In this document: positions 3,291 to 63,700 of the stretch, in pieces | Numbering within the stretch: the first letter of the stretch is position 1 | Layout: each line of letters opens with the position of its first letter | From: Aphrocallistes beatrix | Taxonomy: Eukaryota; Porifera; Hexactinellida; Sceptrulophora; Aphrocallistidae | DNA length: 64,000 nt | Direction: 5' to 3' | NCBI GenBank assembly: GCA_963281255.1 | Contig: OY725488.1 | Span: forward strand, 7,971,524 to 8,035,523 | Notes under the pieces: generated by a model | What the model was told of the DNA's origin: nothing | What the model saw: only the letters and a program-made list of their open reading frames with translations | The model's database searches: none | Made by a program: the position numbers and the translations under genes

Positions 3291-4189
3291 GGCTAATTTT
3301 AAATTGCAATTTTGGTAAAACATGACTATTATGAAAATATTTACTAAAAAATATTTTTTTTACATCTGGAGTTAAATATCTACGTAGGTGTATTATCTTT
3401 CCAATTTAATATTAAAATTCAACTGCTCACTGCTACTTCCTTAATTTCTATTTTGTAAAGTAATCAGCCACATTTGCATACTAATATATGCAGGGTGGTC
3501 CGCCTGTTAACAATTGCCCTTGCAGCGAGATTCGTAAATACATATACTGTTACCTTCAGTCCCAAGCATTCTTATAATATTAATTCCTTTCCCTTGTAGG
3601 GTATTCGCGAAGCTAATAAATTTTTTAGCAAAATGCAGCATGCTATTACCAGTTGGAAATCGAAATTGATATAATAATAATAATAATTACAGTTTAAAGT
3701 TTCCCTCTGACTTCACTATCCTAGGTCTCTCTCCCATTGCGATATTAAGAGATAAAGGATGTCCAATATAATGTAATTGTAATATCATACATTGCAAGCT
3801 CGCTAAAAACGCTTATTAATAAAATGCGGGATAAACTGGGAATGATATGATTAAAGTAGCGTAGGCAGACGAGCTGATTTCACGGCTGGAGCGAGTCTGC
3901 GGTAGATGCAGTATTTTAAGAGATTTTCTGTTTCTTTGTGGAGGTAACGAATAGTTACAATCTAAAAGACAAAAACATGATTTATATCTTATAAAAAGTA
4001 CAGAACATCAATTTAAAACATTGTTCTTTAAAACTGCTGCCCACCTTTACAATAGAGATTATTTATTAATTCAAAGTCTGGTTCTGTGAGGTTGATATGT
4101 GAATTGGCTAGATGAGGGATAAGAGTATTTTTATAAAATGAAAAGCTATTTAAATTAATAATATTTAGAATTATTCTATACAAGCATTC
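3291..4189. other. Spacer, no gene seen
   Basis: About 900 AT-rich bases between two minus-strand genes. It has a short ATA/ATT microsatellite near 3670-3690 and no ORF with coding character. I see no transposon ends here. Confidence 0.4.
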
Positions 4190-18900: not shown

Positions 18901-21110
18901 AATAGCTAGGCTCACTCTGAATGGCTGGATGAGCACTCCTAAGGGAAGCCTGCTCTTGTTGAGGAGAGATTTGGATTGAGGAATGTTGTTCAAAGTGGAG
19001 CACAGCATGTAAGGATCGAATTGAGCATGGGTCCTGACTCCGACGCTGACTTTGGGCAGGGGAGGTTCGGGAACATATTTAGGTAAGAGGTTTCTGTTTT
19101 CCAGCAGATTAATCGGCTCTAGCTCAGGTGGCAGGACTTGTTGCTGGAAAGATTGAAGTGGAGTTCCTGAATGCGTATGTCAGATGATAGAACAAGTTAT
19201 ATATAACATGCATAGGAGCACTATGGGATACCTCCCTTGCAGTTTCAGTACAATCGATAGCCTAGCTTTACATACGTATTTATATATGTGCTGAATAATA
19301 TAATTTTAAACTTATCAATAGCAGTTTTCATTACTGAAATACGTAGTGTGATGCATGTAATCATATAAAAAATGTCACTTAATGGTTGCTGTGGTTATGC
19401 TTTAAATTAGACATGTACAAACATACGTACAAACTACCAACGCAGTTAGAAATGCTTGTCATGGGACCATGTACAGTAGAACTCAGTTAGTACGTACCCT
19501 CCGGGAAGCGGGAAAAAGTACGTACTAACCGAGTTGATATTACATAAGAATCTATATAATTAATGAATTCTGGTTCAGAGAAATTAGTACGTACTAAGCC
19601 GAAGTACGTTGTATCCCGAGTACGTTCCAACCGAGTTCTACTGTATTATATATTTTTATCAATGGTTACCCCCCTACCCACGTTAGATTCTATAATTCTA
19701 AGAACAAACGCCGTTTTATGGTCTTATTTTATATTTAGATAGTAAGCACACTGTATATATGGTATGGGAACATCTAGTGCAATACCACCCAAGGTCATAC
19801 AAGTTCGACTCAATGTGACCGGCGAGATACATCACGTATCTTTTTCACAAATGGATAAAATAGTGAGAACATGTCTGTGTTCTCTAAAATATTTCGCGGT
19901 AAAATGGTATTAAAATGTGAGAAAACCGACCAGTATGCGGTCCGAACTGCTGCTGCTGTCCAGGAGGTGCTTGCGCAGGATGAGGAAATGCTCCCGGATT
20001 GGCTCCTGGGTTGTGAAGGGACGGCTGTTGAAAACCGGGAGCTCCCATCTGCTGCATTCCCGTGTACTGTGTCCTTCCTAAAGGTACAGAATCAACACGA
20101 GTTTGTATGCCATGCTATTAGGGCACTGTGTGATACCTTGTACAGGAGCCTGAATGGAGAGTCCGGAAGGAGCAGACATGAGTGGGTTCGTAGTCTGTGC
20201 CTGCGGGCCGGGCTGAGGAACTGAGGACAGGAAGTTGGTAGGGGGAGGCTCTAGGTTAGGTGGCGGGTAGGGAGAGGAAGCAGGGGAGAGATGGTGCCTG
20301 AGAGGAGGAGCAGATAGATTAGAGGGAGGTTTCTGAGAATCGAATTTGGATTGAGGCGTGGTGGAGATGGGAGGACGCAGAGGTGCGTTTATTTGAGAAT
20401 GGAGGTGCGAGTGGGTAGAGGCATTCACCGCAGAGGGGGTAGGGTCAGGATGGGAGAGGGGTGGGTTAGAGAGTGAAGACGGCTGCATAGGAACAGGATT
20501 GGTAGACAGTAGGTGGGGATGTGATGGCGGAGTCTGCTGGATCGGATGAAAATGTAAATGAATACAGTTATAGCGTAGTAAGACAATCACGTGCAAACCT
20601 GATTCCTGGGAATAGCAGTCCCAACCCCAGATAGTGAGTTCTGCTGTCCATTCACAAACCCAGCATTCGGAGCAGTGTCTTGTGCACCAGGAGGCATAGA
20701 TGGGACTGTAGACTGGTATGGCGGTTGGGCTCTGATGTGAAGAAGTGATAAAAGTTAGAACTGTATAAAAACACGACCTATTGAATACAAATATTTGCAC
20801 ACCTATGTGACGGGGGGTATTGATTGTGTGGTATCGAAGGTCCCATCTGCATGTCCTTCATCCCCTGCACTAGGTTCTGCGGGTGAGTAGCAGCAGCTGA
20901 TTGGCCGTGAGGGCGAGAGGGAGGGAGAGGTTGTGATTGGGTCGGTAACACGGGGGGTCCCTGGTAGATCTGGGAATGTTGAGGATGAACCTGGGTATAC
21001 TGGGGTGTCTGTGCGGGGTGAACTTGTGAAGGGAACATCTGTCCTGGATACCCGGTGGGAGGTGCATAGGCACCGGTGGGGTAGGATGGGTTGAGTGGAT
21101 GCTCAGACAT
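15963..21110 (-). CDS. SEC24: COPII coat cargo adaptor SEC24
   Basis: SEC24 with SEC23 forms the inner COPII coat at ER exit sites and binds cargo sorting signals. Eleven exons join in frame: 20803-21110, 20599-20731, 20137-20536, 19931-20077, 18916-19166, 18524-18839, 18037-18434, 17616-17804, 17422-17551, 17093-17313, 15963-16778, giving 1102 residues, the usual size. The first 350 or so residues are a Pro/Gln-rich disordered region. Then come LLPKYVPEPPLP, a zinc finger (CHNCRTYINPYIAF with a second pair in WKCNIC), the trunk domain starting YVFVLDVTY, the beta-sandwich (DLKRYFTRRIGFEAVMR, then LALHTFHGNCFVRSTDLLALP), helical domain and C-terminal gelsolin-like domain. The paralogue class (A/B or C/D) is not decided. 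The intron between the exons at 19931-20077 and 18916-19166 carries a transposon at 19472-19645. Confidence 0.95.
19472..19645. mobile_element. Miniature inverted-repeat element in a SEC24 intron
   Basis: Starts TACAGTAGAACTCAGTTAGT and ends ACCGAGTTCTACTGTA, with GTACGTAC words repeated in both halves. The TA edges suggest a TA target duplication. It lies wholly within an intron of SEC24. Confidence 0.75.
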
Positions 21111-23363
21111 GGAGTGTGGATTTACTGAACATGTAATAACATTATATAAAATGTAAATGAAGTACGTTAGTATGTCCTGAGTGTTGGTCGCTGCCTAGTA
21201 TCCGGCTTCGAATCTGGAGATTTAAAATGATTTCAACTTTGCGACTTGTCAGGGGTGGATTGAGCTGTTGGGACACAGGGCATTGTCAGTGGGTTGATTA
21301 ACTGATGCGCTATTTAGCTGATATATTGCGCCAACTGAACTATTTTGCAGGCTATGTGGGCAAGCCGCGCCTCTCAGCTTCACGATCTCGTCGTGTCTCA
21401 CGGTTTTCGCTGTTACATGAGACCATTACTATTATCTCACGAATTTAGAACACTGTTCGCAATGTTATTTTAGCATGTCTCACGAATCACGATTTGCTAC
21501 ATGTCATCACACAATTTAGTTAGATTACAGGTTGAGAGGCCTGTGTGGGACGTTTTGGTTGCCCAATCTGCGCCTGACACTTGTTATCAACAGACCAGGA
21601 TTTAGGAATATTAACTATGGTTTTATAATAAGTGAGGCTAATAACACCGACCAGTCGGTGTCAATAGCCACTTCGTTATAATAATTAGAATAATGCATTT
21701 GCAAAATCAAATAAATTCAAGTATATACAGTTGCGAAATGCAAGCATTCAATGAATGATGTCATATATGCAACATCAACATTTGTACCAGGGAAATACGT
21801 AGTAACCATAGATGTGTGGAGAATTTCAATGATAAGTTTATATTGAGATATTGTAAACGTCAAAAATGACTCAAAATATATTCGGCAACAAATATGTTAG
21901 TTCTGTCTGTGCATGTGAAACATCACTACAAAGTATCATTTACTAGGGATAAAAACAAAATGAAAGGATAGGTTGTGTGTAGAGTGGGACAGATTCGGTG
22001 TTGGAATATCATTAGGAATGCATTTGTTATTAAAATGGGCCTCCTACAAAACAACGCAGTACTTGGAATATAGGGAAGTTAGGAAACTTGTTTCAGCCCC
22101 TGCCCGCCTGCATCAACATTTGGCTTCGTATGTACTGTCGTTATCTCCATTATTGCCATCAGTAGCTCATTCTATTTCAGGTGCAGAGTGCATGGTTACT
22201 ATGAATCGGGATATTATTTAACTTACATTCGCTCTAGGTGTGATTTCAATGTTCTTGGTTTTTGAAACTTGAATGCGTAAGTTGAAAGTTTGTAATTAAA
22301 CATCAAATTATCAGCTTTGATGATATCATCAGAAATGGAATAACAGTAATGAATTAGCGCCCGCTTGCATCTCCACTGGAGGTCCTTTTTCGAACTAAAC
22401 ATATTTTTTATTAATAGTAGCCCGAACTGCCGCCCGCCCGCCCGCGTTTTTTTGTGAATGTGACTGAATAACTACGGACTTGTTGAATCTCGCAAGATAC
22501 TAACTACCAAACTATTGTGGACCAGAAATTGAAAAATAGTCGAGAATTTTCAAAATTTTACATTTTATATTCAAAATTTTAAACAGGTCTAGTACCAGGA
22601 AAATACAGTCGTGCCACGATTGTATTTTTCAAAGTACTTTCTTGATTTGTTGCATAGTTAATATCCATAATCCGATATAAACTTAATAGTCATAATATGT
22701 TACTAACAATAATATTTTCAGTTATATGTCTCTTTTGAAGTTTTAAGAGAATAGTTAGTCCCATCCCCTGATGTAGTGATAAAATTAGAGTTAGATCCGC
22801 CCCGATGCTTAAGATCTCAAGCGATCCAGTTGAATTTTAGCTTGAGACGGCGGAGATGATAAACTCGTACATACTACACTCGTGTTACTTAAAAATATCT
22901 TTAATGTAAGATATTAAATTTCTTAAGAGTAAGAATATGGAAATGTTGGTATATTTGGGGGTGGGCAAAATTGGGAACAATTAATTAAATATTATCCAGT
23001 CATGCCGAACAATTAACAAGTACATGTTAACTATTAATTACTTCTCAAATGAATTCATAAACCCTCAAAAACATAATTGATCTGAAGAATAATCATACAA
23101 TAACATGTAGCAGAATAAGTAGTAAGTGATGAGTTGTCAACGGATCAGGAGCTGCAGTATAATGATAATCAATTAATAATACCAAGGTCATGGTAAAGAA
23201 TCACAGCTAGTTGCTACTTTGCACGTTCGAATATATACAAAACATTAAAAACATAAAAGAACAAAATGCGAGCTTTAACTAGACGGGTTTATATCTTTCT
23301 TAGCTAGGTAACACTAAATAACTTTAGCTTTGGAATAAATCGGAAGGCAGTTATCGCAGTGAG
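21111..23363. other. Spacer with one dispersed repeat copy
   Basis: About 2.25 kb between SEC24 and the T-box gene. It holds a copy of the four-member family (21368-21549) and a short CCCG run near 22430-22446. An ORF at 21973-22221 has no protein-like features I can recognise. Confidence 0.4.
21368..21549. repeat. Dispersed repeat family A, copy 1
   Basis: Begins GCGCCTCTCAGC and ends GGTTGAGAGGCCTG, so the ends are short inverted repeats. The 3' half contains the shared words ATTTAGTTAGATTACAGG and CACGATTTGCT. Related copies are at 46909-47041, 50918-51040 and 61424-61569. It is a non-coding miniature element of unassigned class. Confidence 0.75.
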
Positions 23364-28109: not shown

Positions 28110-28595
28110 TATACAAAGATACGTATCTTCCCCTGGATTTTACTGAATGGCTACGCTTTGGTAGAAAGTTAATTAATAACTATACCGTCCCGTGGCATCA
28201 TCCGGAATCCGTGCCTAAATCATTCTTGCGACGTCGATTCAGATTAATTATTTCTGACATCCTGTCCATTCTGTTTAGTGCTTTGATTTGGTGTTTGTTC
28301 CGTGAAATGATTAATCGTGATTTCTTTCTGCTCACGCTAAATTTTCGAGTGCATTGGAACGTTTTCGGAAACGTACAGCGGATCCTGGAAAGCAGCAAAT
28401 CAAACTGAGAATTAACCACATATATATTATCACTATTAGTGATATTAGCAAAGAAATTATTCATACAATTTATTCTATAGGCTCCCTACCTACGTACCTA
28501 GCTCTCGTGGTTTATAATAGAACAAAGTAAGAATTCAATCTTATCCAAATCTTTGCGTTTTAGATTGCCTATTTTAGAAGTGAATAGAACGAAGT

Positions 28596-36700: not shown

Positions 36701-39386
36701 GGCAAGAAGGTATTCGTTGTATGATATTCCAATCATTTCCGAACAAAAGCACAAAAATCGTTTTATAATCTCATTACTATTAAAACTCGATTGCGACTAT
36801 TTCGACTATAACTCAGCCATTTTAGATGATAGAAGGCTGAAATTTTAATAGAATGTGTATATTAATATTCTACACATTTGATACAACTATCATCAACAAA
36901 TGATGACTCATCACTCTGTTATGACGTCATCATTACGCATCAAAAAAAATTTGATGATTTTTCGAGTGATATCGATTTGAAAGTAACACAGACATATTTA
37001 GGATGTTATCTTCCTTATAATTAATCAATGTGAGCCCAGGTGTCCAAAGGGCGCCTCCGGCGGACACGAGGTGTCCGCCAGCTGCGCAGCGCAAGCAAGC
37101 GAAGCGCGCTTGTATGTATTTAAAAGTTAAGTTTGATTCTCATTGTTATCTTTTCTCAAGTTACATTTTTCGCACCACTCAACCCGGGGCATACAAATTG
37201 CAGCTTTTGTATTGCTTTTGCCAGATATGGTCATTTCTAAACCTTTTGCAATGAGGCCATCTCTGCAATTGAATTCGGTTTGAAGAGCATAAATAGAATT
37301 TAATTCGAATTAAATTAGTTGATAGTCACCTTTAAATTATCTACGATATAACTACAATATTCCTATAAATGGCAACCCTTGGACCCAGTCATCATCTCAG
37401 GTTTCTCGTCGCTGGTATGTCTTCAATAGGAAGCTTCTTCCTATAGTATGTGTCCTATCTGATTAGTAGGGCATATATAGGATGGTTATGTGGTAAATTA
37501 GTAGCCGTATTCATTTGAGTTTTGTCGAGTTATATCCTGTGTCGAGTAGGCTTTATGGCTTTTAGGAGGAACGAATAAAAATGATGAGATTAGCAATATT
37601 TCACTAGGGATAACATTAGCTGGACGTTGCATAGTTCAATGTATAAATAACAAGCATTTTCTATTGGTAACAACATTCATTCGAAAGATTCTTTTAGATT
37701 TTATTATACGTATAGAAATCAGAATACAATGGCAGGAGTTTTCGGAAGAGGAGCCCCACCTAAGATAGGAACATCTGCACCAAAATGCCCTACCTGTAAC
37801 AAAGCTGTCTATCACGCAGAGCAGGTCATCGCTCTAGGCATGTCATTCCACAAACTGTGTCTCAAGTGCAAAGACTGCAACAAGATGCTGGACAGTGGGA
37901 ACGTGGTGGAGCATGATCAAGCGCCCTTCTGCCGTCCCTGCCATCAGAAGAACTTCGGAACAAAGGGCTACGGCTACGGCGTAGGAGTTGGAACGCTACA
38001 ATCCGAATATACAAATGAAGACACCCCTGAGACGATCAACAGCTCAGGGGTCCCAAAACCCGCTCGAGCTGCATTCGCACCAAACCCAGACCATTCGAAA
38101 GTAGTGACGATCGGCGGAGCACCACGCTGTCCGATTTGCAACAAATCAGTCTACCATGCGGAGGAAGTTGTAGCGATCGGCAAGTCCTGGCACAAGGCCT
38201 GTCTGCGCTGCGAATCTTGTCAGAAGACGTTGGCTCGAGGAGATGTGCACGACCATGAAGCAAAGCCGTTCTGCAAGTCCTGCTACAGCAAGAAGTTCAC
38301 TACTGCCGGGTACGGGTATGGCATGGGGGCTGGCACACTCTCCAGCGGTACGGAACAGGTGAAAACTGAAAAGTCAACCTATCCCTTCGTCTAGTAACTA
38401 GTTCTACTAACCTCACAGTTCTACTTCAGAAGCACTCATCTCATTATGATACTTGAACAATTAAATACGTAGTGTTACTATACTATTCTACTTTTCATTA
38501 TAAGTTGTAGCTAGCGTGAATAAATATGTAATAATGGATAGGTTGATGCTTACATCGAGTTTAATTAATTAACCATTTCAAAACGGAGTGAGATGTGCGT
38601 AAAGATAGCTCACCCAGTAGATTGCTTACGAGCAGGCAGGTCGTGCTTCTGTCTCAGCTTGATAGCGTCTACGACAGAGATGTGAACATCGATGGAATCA
38701 ATAACCTATGAGGAATGCAGAGTTATTGCTGTTTTACCGTTCATAGGAAATACAATGGATACTTACAATGTGGATAGGCTTAGTTTGGATCTTCGTAATG
38801 TGAACCTAATTGAGCAGGAAAGGTAAGTTGTTGAAATCCTTAGGTTGATACATTACAAACGAACAAACTTACTTCAACTTTAATGTTGTCACAAAGGATG
38901 GAGGTTATTTCAAGCCATGGAGGGAGATTCGTTATTTCGCTAATATATTCTGCATCTAGTTCCAAGTTTTTCAGGGCTCCTGTTCCTCTGGAGAGATTGA
39001 GATCGATATCATCTGAATTTAGACTTTTCGTGAACCTGTCAGAGTAAACGCAAATGAAATATACCCAACTTCTCCTCCTATGCCAAATATTAATTCTATT
39101 GAATACCAGATATACTCGAATAGTTGCCGGCCCTCGTAAACAGGGTGCTAAATTATTTTTGCTACTTCTTAGAATAAAGTTGTATACCAAATAATCCCTA
39201 TCACTTATCCAATCACTCGCGGTTATATTTATTGAAAAGTTTAATATCTGAAAGATTACTTTTCATCCATTGATAATTGGGGTTAAGAATTAATGATCGC
39301 CCGGGCTACTATTCGAGGATATAGGTTACTCTATTAGACCACCTAGCTAGTCGTTTGAGAATTTGTTTCTTCAGCAGGCTGGCCAT
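30785..39386 (-). CDS. BLTP3: Bridge-like lipid transfer protein 3 (UHRF1BP1/SHIP164)
   Basis: Member of the repeating-beta-groove family (with VPS13 and ATG2) that forms a hydrophobic channel for bulk lipid flow at membrane contacts; BLTP3 acts on endocytic vesicles. Ten exons join in frame: 39343-39386, 38873-39035, 38767-38805, 38614-38705, 34958-35198, 34429-34887, 33756-34359, 33519-33709, 33370-33444, 30785-33238, giving 1453 residues, close to vertebrate UHRF1BP1. The chorein-like N-terminus is clear: MASLLKKQILKRLAR, then FTKSLNSDDIDLNLSRGTG, LKNLELD and LPPWLEI. SGKYGLTEKMLDSMFVEI matches the next family block, and LVPRPNLYIHINPVQVTF the middle one. The last 160 residues are a predicted coiled coil. 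The 3.4 kb fourth intron holds an antisense two-LIM gene and several transposons. Confidence 0.95.
35217..35753. mobile_element. Helentron-like non-autonomous element, long copy
   Basis: Starts with CCTTACTATTAAAACTCGAT followed by a TG/TA-rich tract, and ends with GCAAGCGAAGCGCTTGTT. Near the 3' end is a perfect 9-bp stem with a 3-base loop (GGCGGACAC, AAA, GTGTCCGCC), then GCGCAAGCAAGCG. A second copy at 36770-37112 and a deleted copy at 56833-56898 share both ends. No long terminal inverted repeats or target duplication were seen. A conserved 5' word plus 3' hairpins without duplication fit a Helitron/Helentron relative, but class is inferred. Confidence 0.75.
36436..36558. mobile_element. 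hAT-like miniature element, degraded
   Basis: Starts CAGAGGCGTAGCCAG, the same end as the intact element at 29793-30138. The right part (CACCTTGACTACGTCACTA) is a mutated inverted copy. No clear 8-bp duplication remains. Confidence 0.65.
36770..37112. mobile_element. Helentron-like non-autonomous element, second copy
   Basis: Shares with 35217-35753 the start TTACTATTAAAACTCGATT, the block GTTATGACGTCATCATTA, the region before ATTAATCAATG, the hairpin CGGCGGACAC/GTGTCCGCC and the end AAGCGAAGCGCGCTTG. It lacks the first internal part of the longer copy. Both copies lie in the same BLTP3 intron in the same orientation. Confidence 0.78.
37729..38394 (+). CDS. Two-LIM-domain CRIP/CSRP-type protein, intronless
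   Basis: 221 residues in one exon. LIM domain 1 starts at residue 20 (CPTCNKAVYHAEQVIALG, then FHKLCLKCKDC, CRPCHQKNFG) and is followed by the glycine-rich tail GYGYGVGVGTL. LIM domain 2 starts near residue 134 (CPICNKSVYHAEEVVAIG, WHKACLRCESC, CKSCYSKKF) with its own tail GYGYGMGAGTL. This LIM-Gly-LIM-Gly layout is that of CSRP/CRIP2/MLP proteins, which bind alpha-actinin and zyxin and act on actin and as transcription cofactors. The gene lies on the opposite strand inside the largest intron of BLTP3. Its strong codon regularity and intact zinc ligands argue it is functional. A poly(A) signal is at 38519-38524. Confidence 0.93.
   Translation: MAGVFGRGAPPKIGTSAPKCPTCNKAVYHAEQVIALGMSFHKLCLKCKDCNKMLDSGNVVEHDQAPFCRPCHQKNFGTKGYGYGVGVGTLQSEYTNEDTPETINSSGVPKPARAAFAPNPDHSKVVTIGGAPRCPICNKSVYHAEEVVAIGKSWHKACLRCESCQKTLARGDVHDHEAKPFCKSCYSKKFTTAGYGYGMGAGTLSSGTEQVKTEKSTYPFV
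38519..38524 (+). terminator. Poly(A) signal for the LIM gene
   Basis: AATAAA about 125 bases after the stop codon at 38394, on the same strand and before the first BLTP3 exon on this side. Its place fits the 3' end of the nested LIM transcript. Confidence 0.55.
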
Positions 39387-44840: not shown

Positions 44841-46480
<1,640 letters not shown>

Positions 46481-48664: not shown

Positions 48665-49944
48665 AATTCGTGTATGAAATATTTGTGTGGATTTAAAATT
48701 TCAATTAAAACTATGGTGTATTAGTCAATGAAATCGTTTTTTGAAACCTCGTTGATTTCTGCAGTCTTTAGCTCCTGAATGCTGGTTACGCTAGAATTTC
48801 GCCGCCAACTAACGGATCATGCATCACCCCAGAACCTCAATTCCGATCCTTAATTGATACAGCTCTGGTTAGGTAGATCCAAAATTATAACATTTCTAAG
48901 AAATGTTGATTATCAAAGCCTTTTAATCTATCTCAATCGGAGTCAATCCATGTGATTGCTCAAACCATCACATGGATACATATTATGATACGACTGCAAC
49001 AACTGGGTAGGGTTAGCTCGTTGGATACGTAATTAGTTAGTTAGTCCTCTGATATCCTAAGCTTTTAAAACTGAATTGATTTCTATTTAAGTATTTTACA
49101 CATTTTCGGAGTCAAATTCCTGTTTAATACCGTTTTACATTTCGTGACTAAATATTCTACCTAAAGACACTCTATTATTTCAACTTGATTTATACAAATA
49201 TTTGAGCGGAGATTAAGATTTAGGATCAGAGACTAGTTTTCAACAAACAAATTTGATATGAAAGAGTCACAAATACGTATTGTTTGTCGTCATTTAACAA
49301 TACAACGTAGGTCCCAATTTGAAAGGGTCAATACGGGTCACTCTGGGACTCACTAGGTACCATAGTCGCCAGGTTTATGATCTGCTGGCCAGGTCGGGGG
49401 GTTTCGGCCCCAGGATTGATATTATTTCCAAAACTTCGCGCCTATTCTAAGAATTTTAAAATTATCTCATTATTCTCATGTCCCCTATTTCCTGAATTTG
49501 AGACTATTTGGAGTAAATAGAATGCTCCTTGTTTACAAATGACAGACTATAAAGCCTACTAAACATTTAGAGCTGAATAAAATGAAATTTATAAGTTATG
49601 GCTATCAGATTGATGGATTAGCGAGGAAAGCATATTTCAGTGAATGTAGTTTTTACCCTTAAAGCGGGTCAGCGGGTGTCGATCCTTCAAATGTGGGTCT
49701 GATGGGACCTATGTACAAATGCATTTTTTTATTCAAGAAATTATTGACAGGATTTCATCTGAAAAGGGCAAGATATTTTTATACTGGGAATATTTTCTGA
49801 CTGCTCTCTCCTTGAGAGTCAGTTAAGTCCTAGCAACGCTTGCTTGTGACTAGTTTCTCGTATCTTTCACGTTTTACTCTCCGCCCCTTACGCTATGTAC
49901 TACGGATATGTATTGTAATTACTGTTGAATTATTTATTAAGTAG

Positions 49945-50565
49945 ATGGCTGAACGTCAATCTTTTGAGTTCAAAGTTGTACTCCTTGGAGAAGGGTGTGT
50001 TGGTAAAACCTCGATCTTCCTCAGGTACACAGAAGGCAAGTTTAATGAGAGGCACGATTCAACCCTCCAGGCTGCCTTCAAAACGAAAAAGTTGTCGATA
50101 GCCGGAAAACGTGTCGCTCTCCACATTTGGGACACAGCTGGGCAGGAGAAGTTCCATGCGATCGCTCCGATCTACTACAGAGATAGCCGGGGAGCCGTAC
50201 TCGTGTATGACATCACGGATGCGAACTCGTTTGACCGTGTCAAGACCTGGGTGAAGGAGCTGAGGAAGATGTGTGGAGCCGACCTGGTGCTGACTATCGT
50301 AGGGAACAAGAGCGACCTGGAGCGGAACAGACACGTGGAAGAGTGGAAAGCGTTGGAGTACGCTGAACAAGTGGGAGCCAAGCACGCCACTTGCTCTGCT
50401 AAGCAAAATAAAGGTATCGAAGAACTGTTTTTAGAGCTCACCAGGCGTCTGACCTCACCAGGGAACTCTACCCCTAAGGCCAGCCCACCCTCTCGGCCCC
50501 AGCCTTCTCTGGACATAGTAGATGATGATGCCAAGCCCCTGGGCAAGGAAGGAGGTTGCTGCTAG
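49945..50565 (+). CDS. RAB21: Small GTPase RAB21, intronless
   Basis: RAB21 controls early-endosome traffic and integrin endocytosis. 206 residues in one exon. GTPase motifs are GEGCVGKT (residues 15-22), the RAB5/21-type switch I (STLQAAFKTKKL), WDTAGQEKFHAI, NKSD and CSAKQNKGIEELFLEL. The stretch VKELRKMCG and the SAKQNKGIEELF block are specific for RAB21 within the RAB5 group. The C-terminus is a Pro-rich hypervariable linker ending GGCC, the double-cysteine geranylgeranylation site. The ATG follows directly after a TAG in an AT-rich acceptor-like sequence. Confidence 0.95.
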   Translation: MAERQSFEFKVVLLGEGCVGKTSIFLRYTEGKFNERHDSTLQAAFKTKKLSIAGKRVALHIWDTAGQEKFHAIAPIYYRDSRGAVLVYDITDANSFDRVKTWVKELRKMCGADLVLTIVGNKSDLERNRHVEEWKALEYAEQVGAKHATCSAKQNKGIEELFLELTRRLTSPGNSTPKASPPSRPQPSLDIVDDDAKPLGKEGGCC

Positions 50566-51592: not shown

Positions 51593-51598
51593 TATAAA
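51593..51598 (+). promoter_or_regulatory. Possible TATA box
   Basis: TATAAA 35 bases before the ATG at 51633. A start about 30 bases downstream would give a 5' leader of only around 10 bases. The site is weak evidence in AT-rich DNA. Confidence 0.3.
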
Positions 51599-51632
51599 TT
51601 CGCCAACTTGAAACAGATCTTACAATTTCCCA

Positions 51633-51929
51633 ATGAAGTTTATACTAATAGCTGCCTTGTGTCTTTTTTGTTTGTGGGTTGTCTCAGTTGAATCGAGCTA
51701 TGCAGAGAGAAAAGAATCCAGACACCAGACAGACAGGGAATGGGTAGTGATGATTGTTTTGACACTCTCAATCCTGTGTGTAGTGGGGTGCATTGGGGGA
51801 ATTATGACATGTTTGGGTCTAGTTATCTTCAACAAATGTCGTGGTAAGAAAACAACAATCGTGAAGTCGGTATCAAAAGGCAAACAAGCAATGGCAGAAG
51901 AACAGCCACCTACATACGACCAACTTTAA
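51633..51929 (+). CDS. Small single-pass membrane protein with PPxY tail
   Basis: I do not recognise the family. 98 residues, one exon. It starts with a signal peptide (MKFILIAALCLFCLWVVSVE), then a short charged lumenal or extracellular stretch (AERKESRHQTDREW), a transmembrane segment from about residue 38 to 67 (VVMIVLTLSILCVVGCIGGI and onward), a basic cytosolic stretch (NKCRGKKTTIVKSVSKGK), and the end EEQPPTYDQL. PPTY is a PPxY motif that can recruit WW-domain proteins such as NEDD4-type ubiquitin ligases. This layout recalls small shisa-like or vesicular adaptors, but the cysteine pattern needed for a shisa assignment is not present. The clear segment order and stop-to-motif placement argue it is a real gene. 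Confidence 0.72.
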   Translation: MKFILIAALCLFCLWVVSVESSYAERKESRHQTDREWVVMIVLTLSILCVVGCIGGIMTCLGLVIFNKCRGKKTTIVKSVSKGKQAMAEEQPPTYDQL

Positions 51930-52524
51930 AAGCTTCTACTATGTCTTTTGTCTTTTTCTTTTATGTGTTCATGTGTGGTTGTTAAAATAATTTTACCCCC
52001 AAGATGTACATGTCTGATTCTTTGTCTCATTAGACTCATAATTTAAATTAATAACTTTATAATTGATAATGGAGTCGTTTGTTCTATCTAGCTCCAATTT
52101 TTAAATTCTGTTGTCTAAATCGAGCTCAAGTCATAAGCCATATCATAAAATCTAAAATGAAGAATTTGTCCAAAATGTAGAATTTAAAATATATACAATT
52201 TACGAGATATATATTCACGAAAAGAATTAAATTAGAATAATTCAAAAAATGTAATAAAATCCCAAAATTTATAAATAATTTAATCTTTTTGAATTGGGCT
52301 TTCTTTTCTTATCAGGATGTGATAGTCTAGGACCCTAGAACATTATTACGCGCTTAGATTTACATTCTTTGAATTCCATTCGCTTGTAAGTATGCGCAAT
52401 GCGCACAGATTAAACTTTGCACATCCTACGCCACCCTACAGAAAGTGTTTTTACCAAATTATAATTCGCCTTTTTCGCTTCACACCCGAATGTAGAACTT
52501 AACATAGAACCAGCTCGCTTTATC
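51930..52524. other. Spacer before eIF2alpha
   Basis: About 600 AT-rich bases. It probably holds the 3' UTR of the small membrane protein and the eIF2alpha promoter. No transposon ends seen. Confidence 0.35.
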
Positions 52525-54082: not shown

Positions 54083-54200
54083 ACTTGTCAATTAGTGGTT
54101 ACCACAGACTATGCGACTTTGTTCCACAACCAGCCTGATTCACTTATGCCTGTTGTGGAGCAAAGTCTCATAGTCTGTGGTAACCATTAATTGACAAGTA
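54083..54200. repeat. Near-perfect 118-bp palindrome
   Basis: ACTTGTCAATTAGTGGTTAC and CACAGACTATG run inwards from the left; CATAGTCTGTGGTAACCATT and AATTGACAAGT run outwards on the right, with TTGTTCCACAAC/GTTGTGGAGCAA nearer the centre. Each arm is about 50 bases with few mismatches. It ends only 23 bases before the next start codon, so it covers the promoter or leader-acceptor zone of the carnitine acyltransferase gene. Confidence 0.9.
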
Positions 54201-54223
54201 TGAATCGAATCTAATTTCAGGTC

Positions 54224-56071: not shown

Positions 56072-57725
56072 ATATATTCCCAGATACCCTGGATTGGTCT
56101 CCAACTCCCATAAAATATTCTTTTTTAAATCCTTAACCCTAGATTATCAACACTCGCGATATCGCGGATGTCTCCAGCCATTTTCAATGGGAAAGAAGCC
56201 ATAAAGTTGTACCACTGTGATATATTTCGGTAGTCTTAGGTTAACCCTTAAATTGTTTGTTATTCACTCATTAATGTCACAGTTCGTGAAATATTTATTG
56301 TGTAATCATTGTTGCTATCCTGATTATTAAAACACGCGGACGGGGTGAGAGGTACTTCTGTATTTAGGAACTAATTCCATTTCATAATTTAGTTGACTTG
56401 TGCCCTGATTAATTAGATTGAGATACTTTTTCAGGGTTGAATAATTGATCTTCTACGATGTATTCTACCTTAAAAGCTATTGTAATACTGGATATTCATT
56501 GTGTCATTGTCACTTCACTTTCATAACGCGTCATCCTACGCCTACGAAGCATTTAACAAAATCACGCGTAGGTTTCGGAATTCAGGATTTTATTATATTT
56601 TGCAAACGTAATCTAATAATTAATCAATATTTAGGTGAATATATCCATGCAACTGCTCGTCGTTTCACAATTGAGTTAGACCCATCGTTTAACAGTCTGG
56701 AAGGACATACATTAATTCGATTTCATCCGGCGGAAAACACATTAATATTATTACTAATTTGCTATCTTACCACGGCGATTCCTTTTAGAAAATAGTATAT
56801 TTACAACATTTATAAAAAAAATATAGTTATCATCCTTACTATTAAAACTCGATTAATGTTTGTGTATGTGTGTATATATATAAGCAAGCGCGCTTGTTTT
56901 TATTAAAAAGCATTGTACATCCAGCACGAAACACAATTTGAAAGCAAGACCTTTCCTTTTGATAGTGCTTTATTCCATCCCAGCATCCATTGTACTTCGT
57001 AAGTAGCTTAGATGGTTGCTAGAGACAAATAGTGTACTGGAACTATAGACTGAATATTTATTGCGCTTCCTTGTATCATATGAGCTGGTTTGATCCAACT
57101 TATACAACATTATGCATTTATACTTTGTGATCCAACATCTGCAGTTAGGAATTTGAGTAAAGGACTTTCCACAAACTTACTCAGAAAAGTTGTACTTACA
57201 TACAGTTACTGCAATGGTTATGGAACAGAAAGGTTTTCTTGGGAGCAGATTATTATCGCTATTGTTTCCATTTACCTGTACTTAATATAGGTAGACTGAG
57301 ACGGGCACATTTCAGAATGTGATATTTGGTCGCTACGAATCATAACTCTATTTGCGACAATTGAATTGCGTTTGGTTTTCTTAGTTCACATAAGTATACC
57401 TATTAAATACCTATTTGTTTAATTTTAATTTATGATAAGGTGGTGAACTGTATGTAAATTTGACATTTTAAATTTATTTATAGCTCAAAAGTACATTTGG
57501 CGATCAATGTTAAATGTGATTAATTGGTGCCACTCTATACCTATTCCGCTGCTACTCTAATTAGCACTGCAGTTTGCTCTGATCCTCTAGTATTAGACTT
57601 ATGTGCAGTACGAAAGGCACTCTATTGAGTATAAATAGACAATTAAACTTACAACTTCTATTTCGAGTCAGCTCGTAATTATCTAGTAAATAGTGACGTT
57701 ACATCTTTTTCAACTAGCTCTTAGA
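56072..57725. other. Spacer before MED25
   Basis: About 1.65 kb. It contains a deleted Helentron-like copy (56833-56898). An ORF at 56445-56795 ends with an odd but unrecognised peptide and is probably chance. The last 20 bases before MED25 are a good polypyrimidine tract and AG. Confidence 0.4.
56833..56898. mobile_element. Helentron-like element, internally deleted
   Basis: Starts CCTTACTATTAAAACTCGAT, passes through a TG/TA microsatellite, and ends at AAGCAAGCGCGCTTG. Only the two ends of the family at 35217-35753 are present, so the termini mark the real element boundaries. Confidence 0.75.
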
Positions 57726-60700
57726 ATGTCAGTTTTCTCTCTCATTCAATCACAAATCACTGACCAGCAGCCTCCAGTCTACAACGACGTCGTATTCATT
57801 ATTGACACTTCTTCTGCTCTCAGCCCATCCTTCTCCTGCCTTTTAGAGGAATATATTGAAAAAATTATCAGGTAATTTACTTTCAAATATTTTGCAATAT
57901 CTTTTAGAATTGTGTGTTCTGTAATCCGATTTTTGGAATTTTCTGAGCATGAACTTTGTGGTCCGAGGGAATGAATCTTCCACTAATAATGAGGTGCACA
58001 TTCAGTAGCAGCTGTGAAACGAACTCGGATTAGACTATTTTAGATAGATAGGCAGTTACAGGCTTACTCGTTAGTTCCTTCTTTGTTCACTCTTCCCTAT
58101 CTTTCGTTTTTCTGCTAATTTAATCAGTGATGAGAGATGCTATCTTCCAGAGCATCTATTTCTTCACTGTACATGTCTATGGAAATAAGTAGTATCGTAT
58201 ACTCAGTAACTAAGTGAGGGGAGGTCTTAAACCCACCAGTTTTGTGGGTTTATCATAAATGAATTCATTTTAAGCAAATTGTTTTAGATGACTTGCCCTC
58301 CTCACTTTGATATTTATTGTTTGGTGAGGATTCGTATGCAGTATTTGTTTTAAAAAGTTTTGGTTAATGGCACGACTTCTTCATACCATGAATTTTGTAT
58401 TGGTTTTTAGTGGTTTGAGGTTAGAATGGTAAGAATAAAGATGAGAGAACTTTAATCGAATAATTAGACCTTGAAGCCCTCCAGCCTCCGCTCCTAACTT
58501 TTAAAAAGGAGAGCGCTCCTTTAATAATACTTTTCGATAAAATTCCTTCCGAGAATAATGAGTTATCTTTGAAAGCCGTTCCTAATTTCTCAGCAAGATT
58601 GAGAAAGTGGAAGATTTGAATACTAATTGATATATTCGGGTGTCATTTTTTGAAAAATCCACTTTCTAATTTAAATTTAGGAGCTCGCTCCTTTCCGAAA
58701 ATATGGAGCACCACTCTTTGGAGCGCGCTACCTAAGCTCTGCGAATAATTAATACGATTTCTATATTTGGAAGGTTTCCTCCTATTAAATAATGTGACAT
58801 AATCGAGAGACTTTCTATTGATTAAATTTGACTTGGTACAATTCCTATAATCTGTGGTATTGGGATCAGAGAGTAGTTAGTTCATAGTAAACAAACTTCT
58901 TTACAGGAGACTGTCGACATTAAGATGCATATTTAAGATTTAGGAATATATTACTTTTTTTTCTCAAAATTCCACTAGAAAATAGTATAGTCCCTCCTGA
59001 TGAGTTCTAGCGTTCGTTATAAATTGGAAGTTTCATAGGTTCTCACTAAGCGATCTTGGTTAGATTTAGTTAACCTAGCAGTACTGAAATCTAGTTCCTA
59101 GTATATAACCGAAATTGTTTGAGTACAATAACTCCGAATGTGCCCCGTATCTCCAAGGTGATTCTTGCAAACTGTATAGCGGGTAAAGATGATTACATTT
59201 ATTATGCGGAGAAAATATTTAAATGGATACATATCTACATCTGTTCAAATTGAGTTTATACTGTCGATTATGCTGCTACTTATTTGTGAAGATAATCTTT
59301 ATATTTTGTTATGTCTGATCGGATCCTACTTCGTAGTACAAATTATGCGGTTCAAGTGTTTCATAGATTTAAATTGATCTATGCTGAGAATTAATTAGGA
59401 AGAACAGGTGGTGCTAATAATGGCTGATGTGAGTATTTAGTATATGCCTACCGTAGTTAGCTTATGTTTGGTTAGGAACAGAGGTGCAGCGGTCTGGACT
59501 GGACTGCGGTCCAGACCGGTCCGAACCGGACCGACCGGTTTCAGCTCAATCCGGTCCGCCTTTTTAAAGTTCGGTCTGGACTGGTCCGAATTAGCGATCT
59601 AACGGTCTGGACCGATCCATCGGTCTGGACTGGTCCACCGGTCTGGACCGATTCATCGGTCTGGACCGGTCCAATATTTTAATCGTGCAGTCTGGACCGT
59701 CTAGAGAATATATATGACGGTCCGGTCCGGTCCATGAAATCACCGGACCGCTGCATCTCTGGTTAGGAAACGTTAATACGTACTATCATTTTACATTCTT
59801 TGTTGATACAATAGCGGATATATGAACGTTGATTTCAGTTGAATTGAGTATGTATTATTCTTTATTCATCCACAATTCAAAATGCCATTCTAGATCTAAA
59901 TGTTAATTGGAATCTAAAATATTTTAAACAAGACTGGCGCTATTAATATTAGGGCACGAAATTTGCTTTCACCATATAACCATCATTCATTTTGATTCTC
60001 AGAACTTTCAGTCTGTGTATTACTCACTGTTATTATTTAGATGTTTTACTGGATTTATCGGAGACCCTAAAGTATTTTACGAATCTAAGGTAGGTTATTT
60101 TATTCCTATGTAATGTAATTAACTGGATGATCTATCAGTAATATTGAGTATGTAATCAGCAATATAAAACTAGCAGTATAATGAAGCGGACTCAATTAAT
60201 GCAAAACTATATCTAGCTTGTGGTTTCTTCAATAGAACACGGTTTCTTCTATTTGGCCTTGAAGCTAATACAACTGCCTTCCACTTCTGGCCAAGTGTCC
60301 AGTATGAATTCCTCCAAGTCGTCCATTGTCCCCTGGATAATGATCTGATCCTCTCCCGTGATGGACGCCCCTCGTGAGTAGTGTTGAGAGAATTGTTTGG
60401 TAGCCTTTTTCAAGTCAATATCACAAGTTTTAAGCCCTTCAACCACTGTTGCAAACTTCCCCTTTGCTCGGTTCGAGAGAGAAATTATTATTTTTCTCTC
60501 TGCATCCTGTTTCTTAGTTTTCTTGATTGCTTTCCCGCCTCGTGTTTGCTTTTTCTTGTCATCGAAAGTTGACAGTTCTTCCAGTTTGATCTCACCCACC
60601 CTTGCAACTAGCGCCTCGTAATCTGATGGGAGATTATCTTGCATCCACTTCTGACACTTCCCATACACCCCACTGTACTCACAGAATTCTGTCGGCATTC

Positions 60701-63700
60701 TACACACCCCGCAGTGTTGCACTGTTAGGGGGTACACAATAGCCTCCTTGTCAAGAGCGAGAGTAGGTTGATCTACTTCCTTCGTTGCCATATCTAAACT
60801 CTTCAATGTTATATTCTATATAGTGAAGAATTATGCTTGATTCTTTGATTGCTCTGTGCAACCCGATAGATAGAATCGCTCTGATTGTTTCTTCAATAGG
60901 GTTTTGGAATTATGGTTTCACTATATAATCCTAAATTACCATTAATATTATACCATCCAGATTTCTGAGGTATTATTGTCTGTTTTTTACAGCTTTAGCG
61001 CGCAGACTTTAACACAATTTGGTCAAATTCTGAAATTCTACCCAGTATATTGATTATTACATCTATTTTTTGAGAATCTTAAGTAATCGAAGTTACTCAA
61101 TTATGGTGGAATTTAGTCATCATAACATCATAGTACACTATTTATACTCTCCCCAAATATCAAGTAGCATATTTTACAACTAATAAGTTATTTCATAATA
61201 ATGATACTAGATAGGTCCAAATGATTAAAATATTTTTGTACGCATTTTAGTAGTACAGGTACGTACGTAGTTCGCTTCACTTATGGTTCGTTATCACGTG
61301 TTTTGTATATTATTTTACCATGTGATTGATCTTTCGTTCATACCGACCAAAGTTGCCAAGATTTGCATGATGAAAGAATGACGTCAGAATTCCATTGCAT
61401 TTGTCCATTTCTGAAATTTCCTTTCCTCAACTCTCACGACCTCATCATTTGTCTCACAATTTTGGTGTTATATGTTACTCACTCTGTTCATAATACTATT
61501 TACCATATCTCTTTTTTGCTCCATGCCATAACGCGATTTACTTTTAATTACAGATTAAGAGGCCTGCCATTAATTATTGATACATTACTCATGCATGTTA
61601 GTTTTAAATGATATAAGTATTTCTAAATGATATGCACATTTTTAGCGATTATTATATTCTGTTTTGTTTCAGGAAGCTTATACTCAGTTCGGTATCGTTC
61701 TGGTTGTACCCACAACGACACCCACAGTCCCACTCGTGAAGAAGCTACAAGCCACGAGTAGCACAGGGCTCGTGTTAGAATACCTCCGAAGTTTAGTGTG
61801 AGTTCACAACGTAATTACATTGAAATTTATAAATAAATACTATGCAATCATACTATATTTATACGAACATACAACACTACGTACAATACTGAATTTGAGT
61901 AGTGCATTTAACAGTAGTTTCCCTGATTTGATTGGTTGAATCATCTCTTTCTATTATATTAGATTTGAAGGAGCAGGATTTGAATATTTTCCTCTTTCAG
62001 ATGGACTTATTGGAGCAATCGATGTAAGCTTATTCGTCTCTCTTATAGGTGTTATTTGAATCTAAAGTTAGCTCCTTTCAGATAGTTATTCAATCAATTA
62101 TTTTCTAATTTTATTTCTTAAACCCTACTATCCTCTTTTCATTAATTCATTAATTTTATCCAATCCATAATATATTTCACACATTCCCAAATTTTAGATT
62201 TTTAGAAATTTACAGAGTCACCAGGATCTGAGGTAGGTTGCTATTATTTGGAGATTCCATGGATTTATACAGCTAGACTTTTCTTGAATTTAGTACGACG
62301 TAAATATCTATTAATATTTAGTTTTTTAATCAAAATGCTAATTTTGTGGTGTTTTTTCTTGCAGATAATATACATACACTCGGATAAGACTTCGGCTAGT
62401 ACACGTAGGTACTTTTTCAAATTTCACTTACGGGTAGTACGTCTTATCCGAGTTCAATTAGCTCTAATATAAAATACTTATTTTTGTGTATTCAAAGAGT
62501 TTTTCACTTTTCATTCTGACTTTGTATAAATCCATGGTTTAAGCATATAAATAATTATAAATGCCAATAGTGCCTATTCTTACTCGCTTTTATTAAGCAC
62601 CTCTGATACAGATATGAGCGAAGCGCGCTAGAAATTTAATATTTTTTTATTTAGACCCGGTTCTCATGAGAAATACTGCGTAGTCGTCACGAATAAACCA
62701 TATCATACGCTCCCTTACTGTAAAGAGAGTGAATTCAAAGGCAGTACCGCGATGGATATCACCAGCTACATGAAGGAGGTAAAACTAATTGCCTTATACA
62801 ATAGCCTAGATTCTACTTCCTCTGCATAGAACTGTATTGAGTTAGATTAATTAACCTAAATTTTGAACAAAGGTAATATGGTTATTGCAACACTATCAAT
62901 ACACTAACTTGAAATGGTGAGGATAGCTATTCTTGCACATATTGTATAAATAACTAAACTGCTATTGAATATTACCTCCTTAGATAATCCTACATACACG
63001 ATATACACATTATTGTTAATTTGCACATACTAGCTGCTAATTGATATTTGTATTCCATTACACTTTAGCAACAGATTAAACTATCAATTGTCTCTCCGAG
63101 AAGAATTCCAGAATTGAAATCGCTCTATGAGCAGGTAGGATATTTTAATTTAGGATAATAACCTTTCTTATACAGAGTTTGTAATAGCAGCGGCTCGCGG
63201 CCACATATCTTTTCTCTATTAATTTAATATATTTGTTTTACCAATTGCTGAATTCCCTTAAATAATATTTTCAATACAGGCCTTGCTTTCTCCTGATTTA
63301 TCAATCATGGACGCGAACAAACAATATAAACATCTCGTGATGCTTCAAGGAATTGACATGCAAGGTAAAGGTAAGTTTTAAGATCCAAGAAGCCGCTTAG
63401 CTGCTTGAGCTACGGAGCTAGGGCATTTTTTCTATTTCGTATATCGTTTGGTATTCATGTAAAATTCGGGTAAATTTTTGTCTTTCCAGTCCTCCATAAA
63501 TGCTAGGACATTTGTCGATCCTCAAAAAGAGGATCGCGTTTCCTATCCCGATCCTTTTGATGAAGTTTATATTAAGACATTTAAAAGTGGAATGTTGCTG
63601 AGCGCACATTCGTAATGAATGTTAACCTCATTAAGGACCATTTTCTAGCTCGAATTACCCTGAAACATTCAATTCTTAAATATTCAAAATATTTTCCAAA

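Follow-up and report, generated by a model that had tools for sequence, protein, structure and literature searches.

In many genes of a 64-kb stretch of contig C1 (positions 7,971,524–8,035,523; the whole analyzed stretch is hereafter the window), part of a 100.5-Mb assembly of 28 contigs, an AG dinucleotide ends a few nucleotides (nt) before the start codon. An initial annotation of the window took these AGs for 3′ splice sites at which a spliced leader (SL) is joined to the mRNA in trans, with ctenophores as a point of comparison. This raises the question of whether an AG just before an ATG marks a splice acceptor or belongs to the transcript itself. Our analysis indicates that the near-start AGs are real and are a TAG bias of putative short 5′ leaders. 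For most genes, our favored reading, with a probability of about 0.72, is that the AG lies within a short 5′ leader that is not spliced.

TAG is enriched upstream of start codons

We compiled 119 start codons: 36 chosen by hand from 164 kb, 72 from Ras-family genes (56, then 16 more) and 11 from UBC-family genes, the two families being sampled genome-wide. These were compared with 2,585 noncoding ATGs as the control. The hand-chosen starts came from 45 gene-finder models, lists of open reading frames (ORFs) and the genes named in the initial annotation, with Pfam support for part of them only; a repeat array in A (0–30 kb), several other models and the transposon-rich block B (100 kb of contig C2) were left out of the counts. 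For the Ras family, 80 regions were inspected of 145 matches; those without an ATG or upstream stop (L119, L127, L140, L141, L153 and L157) and the near-duplicates L100 and L104 were dropped, leaving 72. For the UBC family, 14 of 90 matches were inspected, and dropping L173 (13 left) and the near-duplicates L168 and L170 gave 11. The last 16 Ras starts and the 11 UBC starts were sampled after the TAG signal had been noticed.

The claim that an AG lies a few bases before the ATG in many genes held. An AG ends 0–4 nt before the ATG in 20/36 hand-chosen starts, compared to 9.4 ± 2.7 in dinucleotide shuffles, none of which reached 20 in 300 attempts. Over the full set, 55/119 starts have such an AG, compared to 27.0% of the control ATGs (binomial p = 6 × 10⁻⁶), made up of the hand-chosen (20/36), Ras (23/56), further Ras (7/16) and UBC (5/11) samples.

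The enriched word is TAG, which occurs 95 times in the 20 nt before the ATG where 39.6 are expected (p = 7 × 10⁻¹⁴). Other words ending in AG are near expectation over the same 20 nt (CAG, 34 vs 28.8; AAG, 31 vs 38.0; GAG, 35 vs 32.3), as are the other two stop words (TAA, 74 vs 70.8; TGA, 44 vs 53.5). At least one TAG is present within 20 nt of the ATG in 75/119 starts, compared to 29.8% of the control. Counted in successive 15-nt bins going upstream, the observed/expected ratio of TAG is 2.15, 1.99 and 1.45, and then 1.10. The excess is present in all three frames (first 92 starts) and was found again in the later samples (14 vs 5.3 expected for the 16 Ras starts; 11 vs 3.7 for the 11 UBC starts). 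A limited literature search (glass sponge, UTR, start codon) returned no paper on such a bias by title, and we do not claim that it is undescribed.

We considered whether the near-start AGs could reflect chance or a start-codon context effect. In the 36 hand-chosen starts, an AG within 20 nt of the ATG, the range needed to admit the genes labeled SEC24 and LITAF, is only slightly in excess (32 vs 26.9 expected, P = 0.04), and within 40 nt the excess is nil (34 vs 33.9). Purines at position −3 are also somewhat raised before starts. However, only TAG is in excess, over approximately 45 nt, and two later samples repeat this excess; if purine context were responsible, GAG and AAG should be raised as well. 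We therefore give almost no weight to this explanation.

Most near-start AGs lack the features of splice acceptors

As a reference for acceptors we used 21 predicted cis introns, taken from a gene finder with a fixed generic splice prior and not from complementary DNA (cDNA); a self-trained splice model had drifted, probably onto a repeat, and the fixed prior was used in its place. The predicted introns end in TAG (12/21) or CAG (8/21). If acceptors precede the ATG, CAG should also rise, since cis introns end in it too, and CAG is not raised.

A second feature of the predicted cis acceptors is a preceding stretch that is free of AG. Within the 12 nt that precede the site, another AG occurs in 2/21 cis acceptors, compared to 52% of 7,472 control YAGs (Y, pyrimidine). 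The corresponding figure is 65% for the 52 YAGs within 10 nt of an ATG and 53% for the 113 YAGs within 25 nt. For the 5′-most TAG within 20 nt, it is 43%, compared to 46% in the control. An acceptor matrix built from the 21 introns showed no enrichment of high scores near the 36 hand-chosen starts; YAGs within 10 nt have a median score of −2.2, compared to −2.5 for the background and +1.8 for cis acceptors. Pyrimidines before the site, an AG-free stretch and the use of CAG as well as TAG are thus not, in combination, a general property of starts. GTRAG donors (R, purine) are rarer in the 120 nt before starts than in the control (9% vs 18%).

The distribution of upstream ATGs gave a further test. 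Only out-of-frame ATGs were compared, because the way in which starts were chosen excludes in-frame ones. In successive 15-nt bins upstream of the 119 starts, their observed/expected ratio is 0.18, 0.39 and 0.53, returning to 0.96 at 45–74 nt, so that the depletion of ATG and the excess of TAG span the same ~45 nt. The depletion is also found upstream of the AG itself. For the 55 starts with an AG at 0–4 nt, the odds ratio of ATG against AGT, GTA and GAT is 0.37 (p = 4 × 10⁻⁴), and upstream of the 5′-most TAG within 20 nt it is 0.44 against the same-letter triplets (p = 0.002, 75 starts). An outron would be free of ATG avoidance, and overall the sequence upstream of these sites is not, a small subset described below being the exception. 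Because sequence that is spliced off is free to carry ATGs, the depletion suggests that this stretch probably belongs to the mature mRNA.

The proposal of the initial annotation, SL trans-splicing of most genes at the near-start AG, is consistent with the enrichment of AG and YAG before the ATG and with TAG being the commonest end of the predicted cis introns. Nevertheless, CAG is unenriched, the sites lack the AG-free stretch, and upstream of the AG the ATG depletion persists. We consider trans-splicing on this scale highly unlikely, and in most of the starts examined the near-start AG is probably not a trans-splice acceptor. We note that the CAG and AG-free-stretch tests lean on unverified introns, since the gene finder uses a generic prior, whereas the ATG test and the TATA test described next do not.

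TATA boxes suggest ordinary short 5′ leaders

A TATAWA word (W, A or T) lies 35–115 nt upstream of the ATG in 43/106 starts, a minority of starts, compared to 12.8% in the control. Transcription commonly begins some 30 nt past a TATA box. The implied leader is 8–85 nt long, with a median of 38 nt (36/92 genes), values that are bounded by the 35–115 nt range searched. The YA signal near +29/+30 downstream of the TATA box is weak. Examples in the window, with those near genes discussed below, are as follows.

57630–57638, plus strand: MED25, TATAAATAG, 96 nt before the start; implied transcription start at ~57660
28513–28520, plus strand: LITAF, TATA box, 83 nt before the start
52460–52464, plus strand: EIF2A, TATAA, 65 nt before the start
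51593–51599, plus strand: small ORF at 51633, TATAAAT, 40 nt before the start
37642–37649, plus strand: LIM-protein gene, TATAAATA, 87 nt before the start
21139–21148, minus strand: ORF taken as SEC24, overlapping TATA boxes, 36–38 nt before the start; implied transcription start at −6 to −8

A TATA box at limited distance and the avoidance of ATG over the implied leader are both as expected of short leaders, and the TATA boxes suggest that these leaders are of the ordinary kind. In the explanation that we favor, transcription would start near the gene, often ~30 nt beyond a TATA box, giving a leader of some tens of nt. Such leaders would avoid ATG in the manner of scanned 5′ leaders and, over the same 45 nt, would carry an excess of TAG, a bias that would account for the many AGs close before the ATG. 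Sequence statistics establish that TAG is in excess, that ATG is depleted and over what distance, that TATA boxes are overrepresented and that most sites are without acceptor features; the transcription starts, and the leaders being unspliced, are what we infer from them.

Ordinary TATA-driven short leaders resemble what we see here in the position of the TATA box and in the ATG depletion over ~45 nt, and differ in lacking the approximately twofold TAG enrichment over that stretch. We know of no explanation for such an enrichment in short leaders. The coincidence of the TAG bias with the 45 nt of ATG avoidance suggests a leader feature at the RNA level. More speculatively, the leader UAG might be a working RNA-level signal in about half the genes of this probable glass sponge (e.g., a protein-binding site or a translation filter), doubling in a subset as a TAG-only trans-splice acceptor; we hold this idea only tentatively.

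A minority of starts has acceptor-like sites

We defined a strict acceptor rule (a YAG within 20 nt before the ATG, with 8 or more pyrimidines and no AG among the preceding 12 nt) and a looser rule (at least 7 pyrimidines, otherwise the same). Both rules were defined after the data had been seen. Eight of the nine genes named in the initial annotation could be placed, each with an AG at about the distance it had given; the unplaced one is a “proline-rich gene”. Their near-start sites are as follows.

57723–57724, plus strand: MED25, AG of a TAG, 1 nt before the ATG (57726–57728); another AG 7 nt upstream (57716–57717)
57715–57717, plus strand: MED25, second TAG, 8 nt before the start; strict rule satisfied (8/12 pyrimidines, no AG in the preceding 12 nt)
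57726–57869, plus strand: MED25, first coding exon, beginning of the Med25 VWA domain (Pfam Med25_VWA, E = 0.001, 19.3 bits, cut-off 21)
49942–49944, plus strand: RAB21, TAG (AG at 49943–49944), 0 nt before the ATG at 49945; neither rule satisfied
54218–54220, plus strand: carnitine acyltransferase, CAG (AG at 54219–54220), 3 nt upstream of the ORF's first ATG (54224); looser rule satisfied
46339–46341, minus strand: SRP54, TAG, 4 nt before the start; strict rule satisfied
3293–3295, minus strand: POLR3D-labeled ORF, TAG, 2 nt before the start; neither rule satisfied
60794–60796, minus strand: DENR, TAG, 2 nt before the start; neither rule satisfied
21125–21127, minus strand: ORF taken as SEC24, CAG, 14 nt before a start at 21110 that is uncertain; strict rule satisfied
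28575–28577, plus strand: LITAF, TAG, 18 nt before the start; strict rule satisfied; other AGs at 1, 8 and 15 nt

The gene name MED25 is weakly supported by the Pfam match, which lies just under the cut-off. The AG at 57723–57724 differs from 19/21 predicted cis acceptors, because another AG ends 7 nt upstream. For carnitine acyltransferase, the start is uncertain, the gene finder having picked 54314; in the longer ORF, the Pfam domain starts at residue 40. An imperfect inverted repeat (85% identity over ~117 nt, window 54083–54199) ends ~25 nt before this ORF. A Pfam search of the POLR3D-labeled ORF returned no significant match, and the ORF taken as SEC24 (start 21110) is likewise without a Pfam match. 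The SEC24 start was set at 21110 because it fits the distance given in the initial annotation; the gene-finder model begins at 20488.

Several observations weigh against the reading of these AGs as parts of unspliced leaders. The strict rule is satisfied by 26/119 starts, compared to 8.3% of the control, and upstream of these strict sites ATG is not depleted (odds ratio 0.94, resting on 7 ATGs). The looser rule is satisfied by 42/119 starts, compared to 15.9% of the control, and this excess recurred in the later samples (10/27, compared to 4.3 expected); upstream of the looser-rule sites, the ATG odds ratio is 0.64 (p = 0.13). The pyrimidine fraction before near-start YAGs is also somewhat raised (0.52–0.54, compared to 0.49 in the control and 0.63 in cis acceptors). 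Furthermore, the features of the 21 cis acceptors partly reflect the generic prior of the gene finder, a nearby TATA box does not by itself exclude trans-splicing, and 83/119 starts belong to two gene families.

These observations raise the possibility that a minority of genes, perhaps 10–20%, are spliced to an acceptor close upstream of the ATG, with either an SL or a 5′ UTR intron, while the rest have ordinary leaders. The candidates would be SRP54, LITAF, SEC24, carnitine acyltransferase and MED25, the last at the TAG 8 nt upstream. However, the strict excess is confined to the first 92 starts (23 vs 7.7 expected) and is absent in the later 27 (3 vs 2.2 expected), which lowered our confidence in it, and the rules were fixed after seeing the data. 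When a TAG is present, its context satisfies the strict rule only a little more often than in the control (19/101 vs 13%, p = 0.07), and much of the strict excess therefore follows from the TAG excess. In SEC24, with TATA boxes at −36/−38, the AG at −14 lies upstream of the implied transcription start. Splicing in such a minority is thus possible, but on balance we doubt it. The trans-splicing proposal, then, is borne out as to the enrichment, and acceptor-like sites do occur in five of the named genes, but the step from AG to acceptor fails for most starts.

Searches for a spliced-leader RNA gene

An SL RNA gene, with a leader followed by a GT donor and an Sm site, was not found in our searches, which would miss one with another promoter or Sm site; this counts against splicing in a minority of genes as far as that limit allows. 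We used the leader of the ctenophore Hormiphora (PMC8527503) as one query. Its last 12 bases followed by GT gave 3 matches, compared to 8 for a control pattern, so that a word from the end of this leader is no commoner than the control; this adds to the case against trans-splicing in most genes. A 17-base word from the same leader gave 42 matches with one mismatch allowed, compared to 9 for the control; the 20 of the 42 that were inspected are one dispersed repeat, which does not resemble the rest of the leader.

The neighborhoods of 5S rRNA were also considered. The 5S genes are four single, dispersed copies with no other Rfam family in their loci, and no SL RNA was seen in the one flank checked by eye (L027). 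Small nuclear RNA (snRNA) genes were found for U2 (four), U1 (three) and U5 (one), and six of their upstream regions share an element ~55 nt upstream. The exact core of this snRNA promoter occurs at 24 places, compared to 18 for the control, and the 20 inspected by eye yielded no SL RNA gene candidate; three of the other four places are U1 and U5 genes already found above. A pattern running from promoter to Sm site gave 268 matches, compared to 56 for the control, and among the matches listed, shown at 80 letters each, these are mostly repeat families with no SL candidate. Five of the 20 inspected promoter-core places belong to a clustered, coding-looking repeat with near-identical copies over ~51 kb (contig C6:4.85–4.91 Mb, L060–L064).

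The source organism is probably a glass sponge

The comparison with ctenophores depends on the identity of the organism. Contig C28 (18.0 kb, of which 8 kb were inspected) carries atp9, cox1 and cox2 and, as judged by eye, a small-subunit rRNA. When AGR is read as serine, familiar motifs appear in the translated cox1 and atp9; when it is read as arginine, none do. The translations thus show, by eye, both an atp9-bearing mitochondrial genome and AGR as serine, the combination that we used to recognize Hexactinellida. We take atp9 in mitochondrial DNA to exclude ctenophores and bilaterians, and AGR as serine, among sponges, presumably points to glass sponges. On these mitochondrial genes, the source is probably a glass sponge and not a ctenophore, and the ctenophore premise of the initial annotation is probably wrong. 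A long inverted repeat opens the mitochondrial contig (L050 1–195, by eye); it may be a control hairpin or mark where the assembly ends.

The nuclear genes fit this assignment. Many have a single exon, and the introns predicted by the gene finder are few and mostly short. Similar gene structure, with many single-exon transcripts (12,409, beside 19,578 genes), is given for Aphrocallistes vastus in PMC10282587, and few, mostly short introns with single-exon genes are likewise given for Oopsacas minuta in PMC10280926.

The original report of hexactinellid spliced leaders is said to be that of Douris and colleagues in 2010. In favor of the initial annotation, hexactinellid sponges are listed among the animals with spliced leaders in PMC7986045. 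Our genes resemble those of known SL systems (hydrozoans, ctenophores and hexactinellids) in having an AG near the start codon in many genes and in coming from an animal class on that list, and differ in that most of the near-start AGs have no acceptor features and neither an SL RNA gene nor the Hormiphora leader was found. A. vastus offers the closest comparison, being a glass sponge with many single-exon transcripts; according to PMC10282587, a ~37-bp leader occurs in only 4% of long reads, with the commonest leader making up ~2% of those. Both the listing of hexactinellids and the A. vastus leader argue for the possible spliced minority described above.

Additional observations

Among the 90 matches to ubiquitin-conjugating-enzyme (UBC) domains are two clusters, at contig C7:223–390 kb and C1:11.66–11.95 Mb, and many members of the C7 cluster fall within open frames ~900–1,150 amino acids long. 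Related short-repeat ORFs (MRNRHLGY..., EEQAFGIPFSIPP) are arrayed upstream of the window at C1:7,871,524–7,896,000 (L006–L008). Repeats resembling CGGTCCGGACC are densely arrayed, as seen by eye, at window 59487–59760.

Discussion

An AG before the ATG in raw sequence is insufficient as evidence for spliced leaders. Two inexpensive tests that need no cDNA can be applied in such cases: whether the stretch before the site is free of AG, and whether ATG is avoided upstream of the site. The TAG bias in the putative short leaders recurred in later samples. The evidence available to us on spliced leaders in glass sponges is thin. Leaders of this kind in early-branching animals matter for the question of whether trans-splicing is an ancestral trait of animals.

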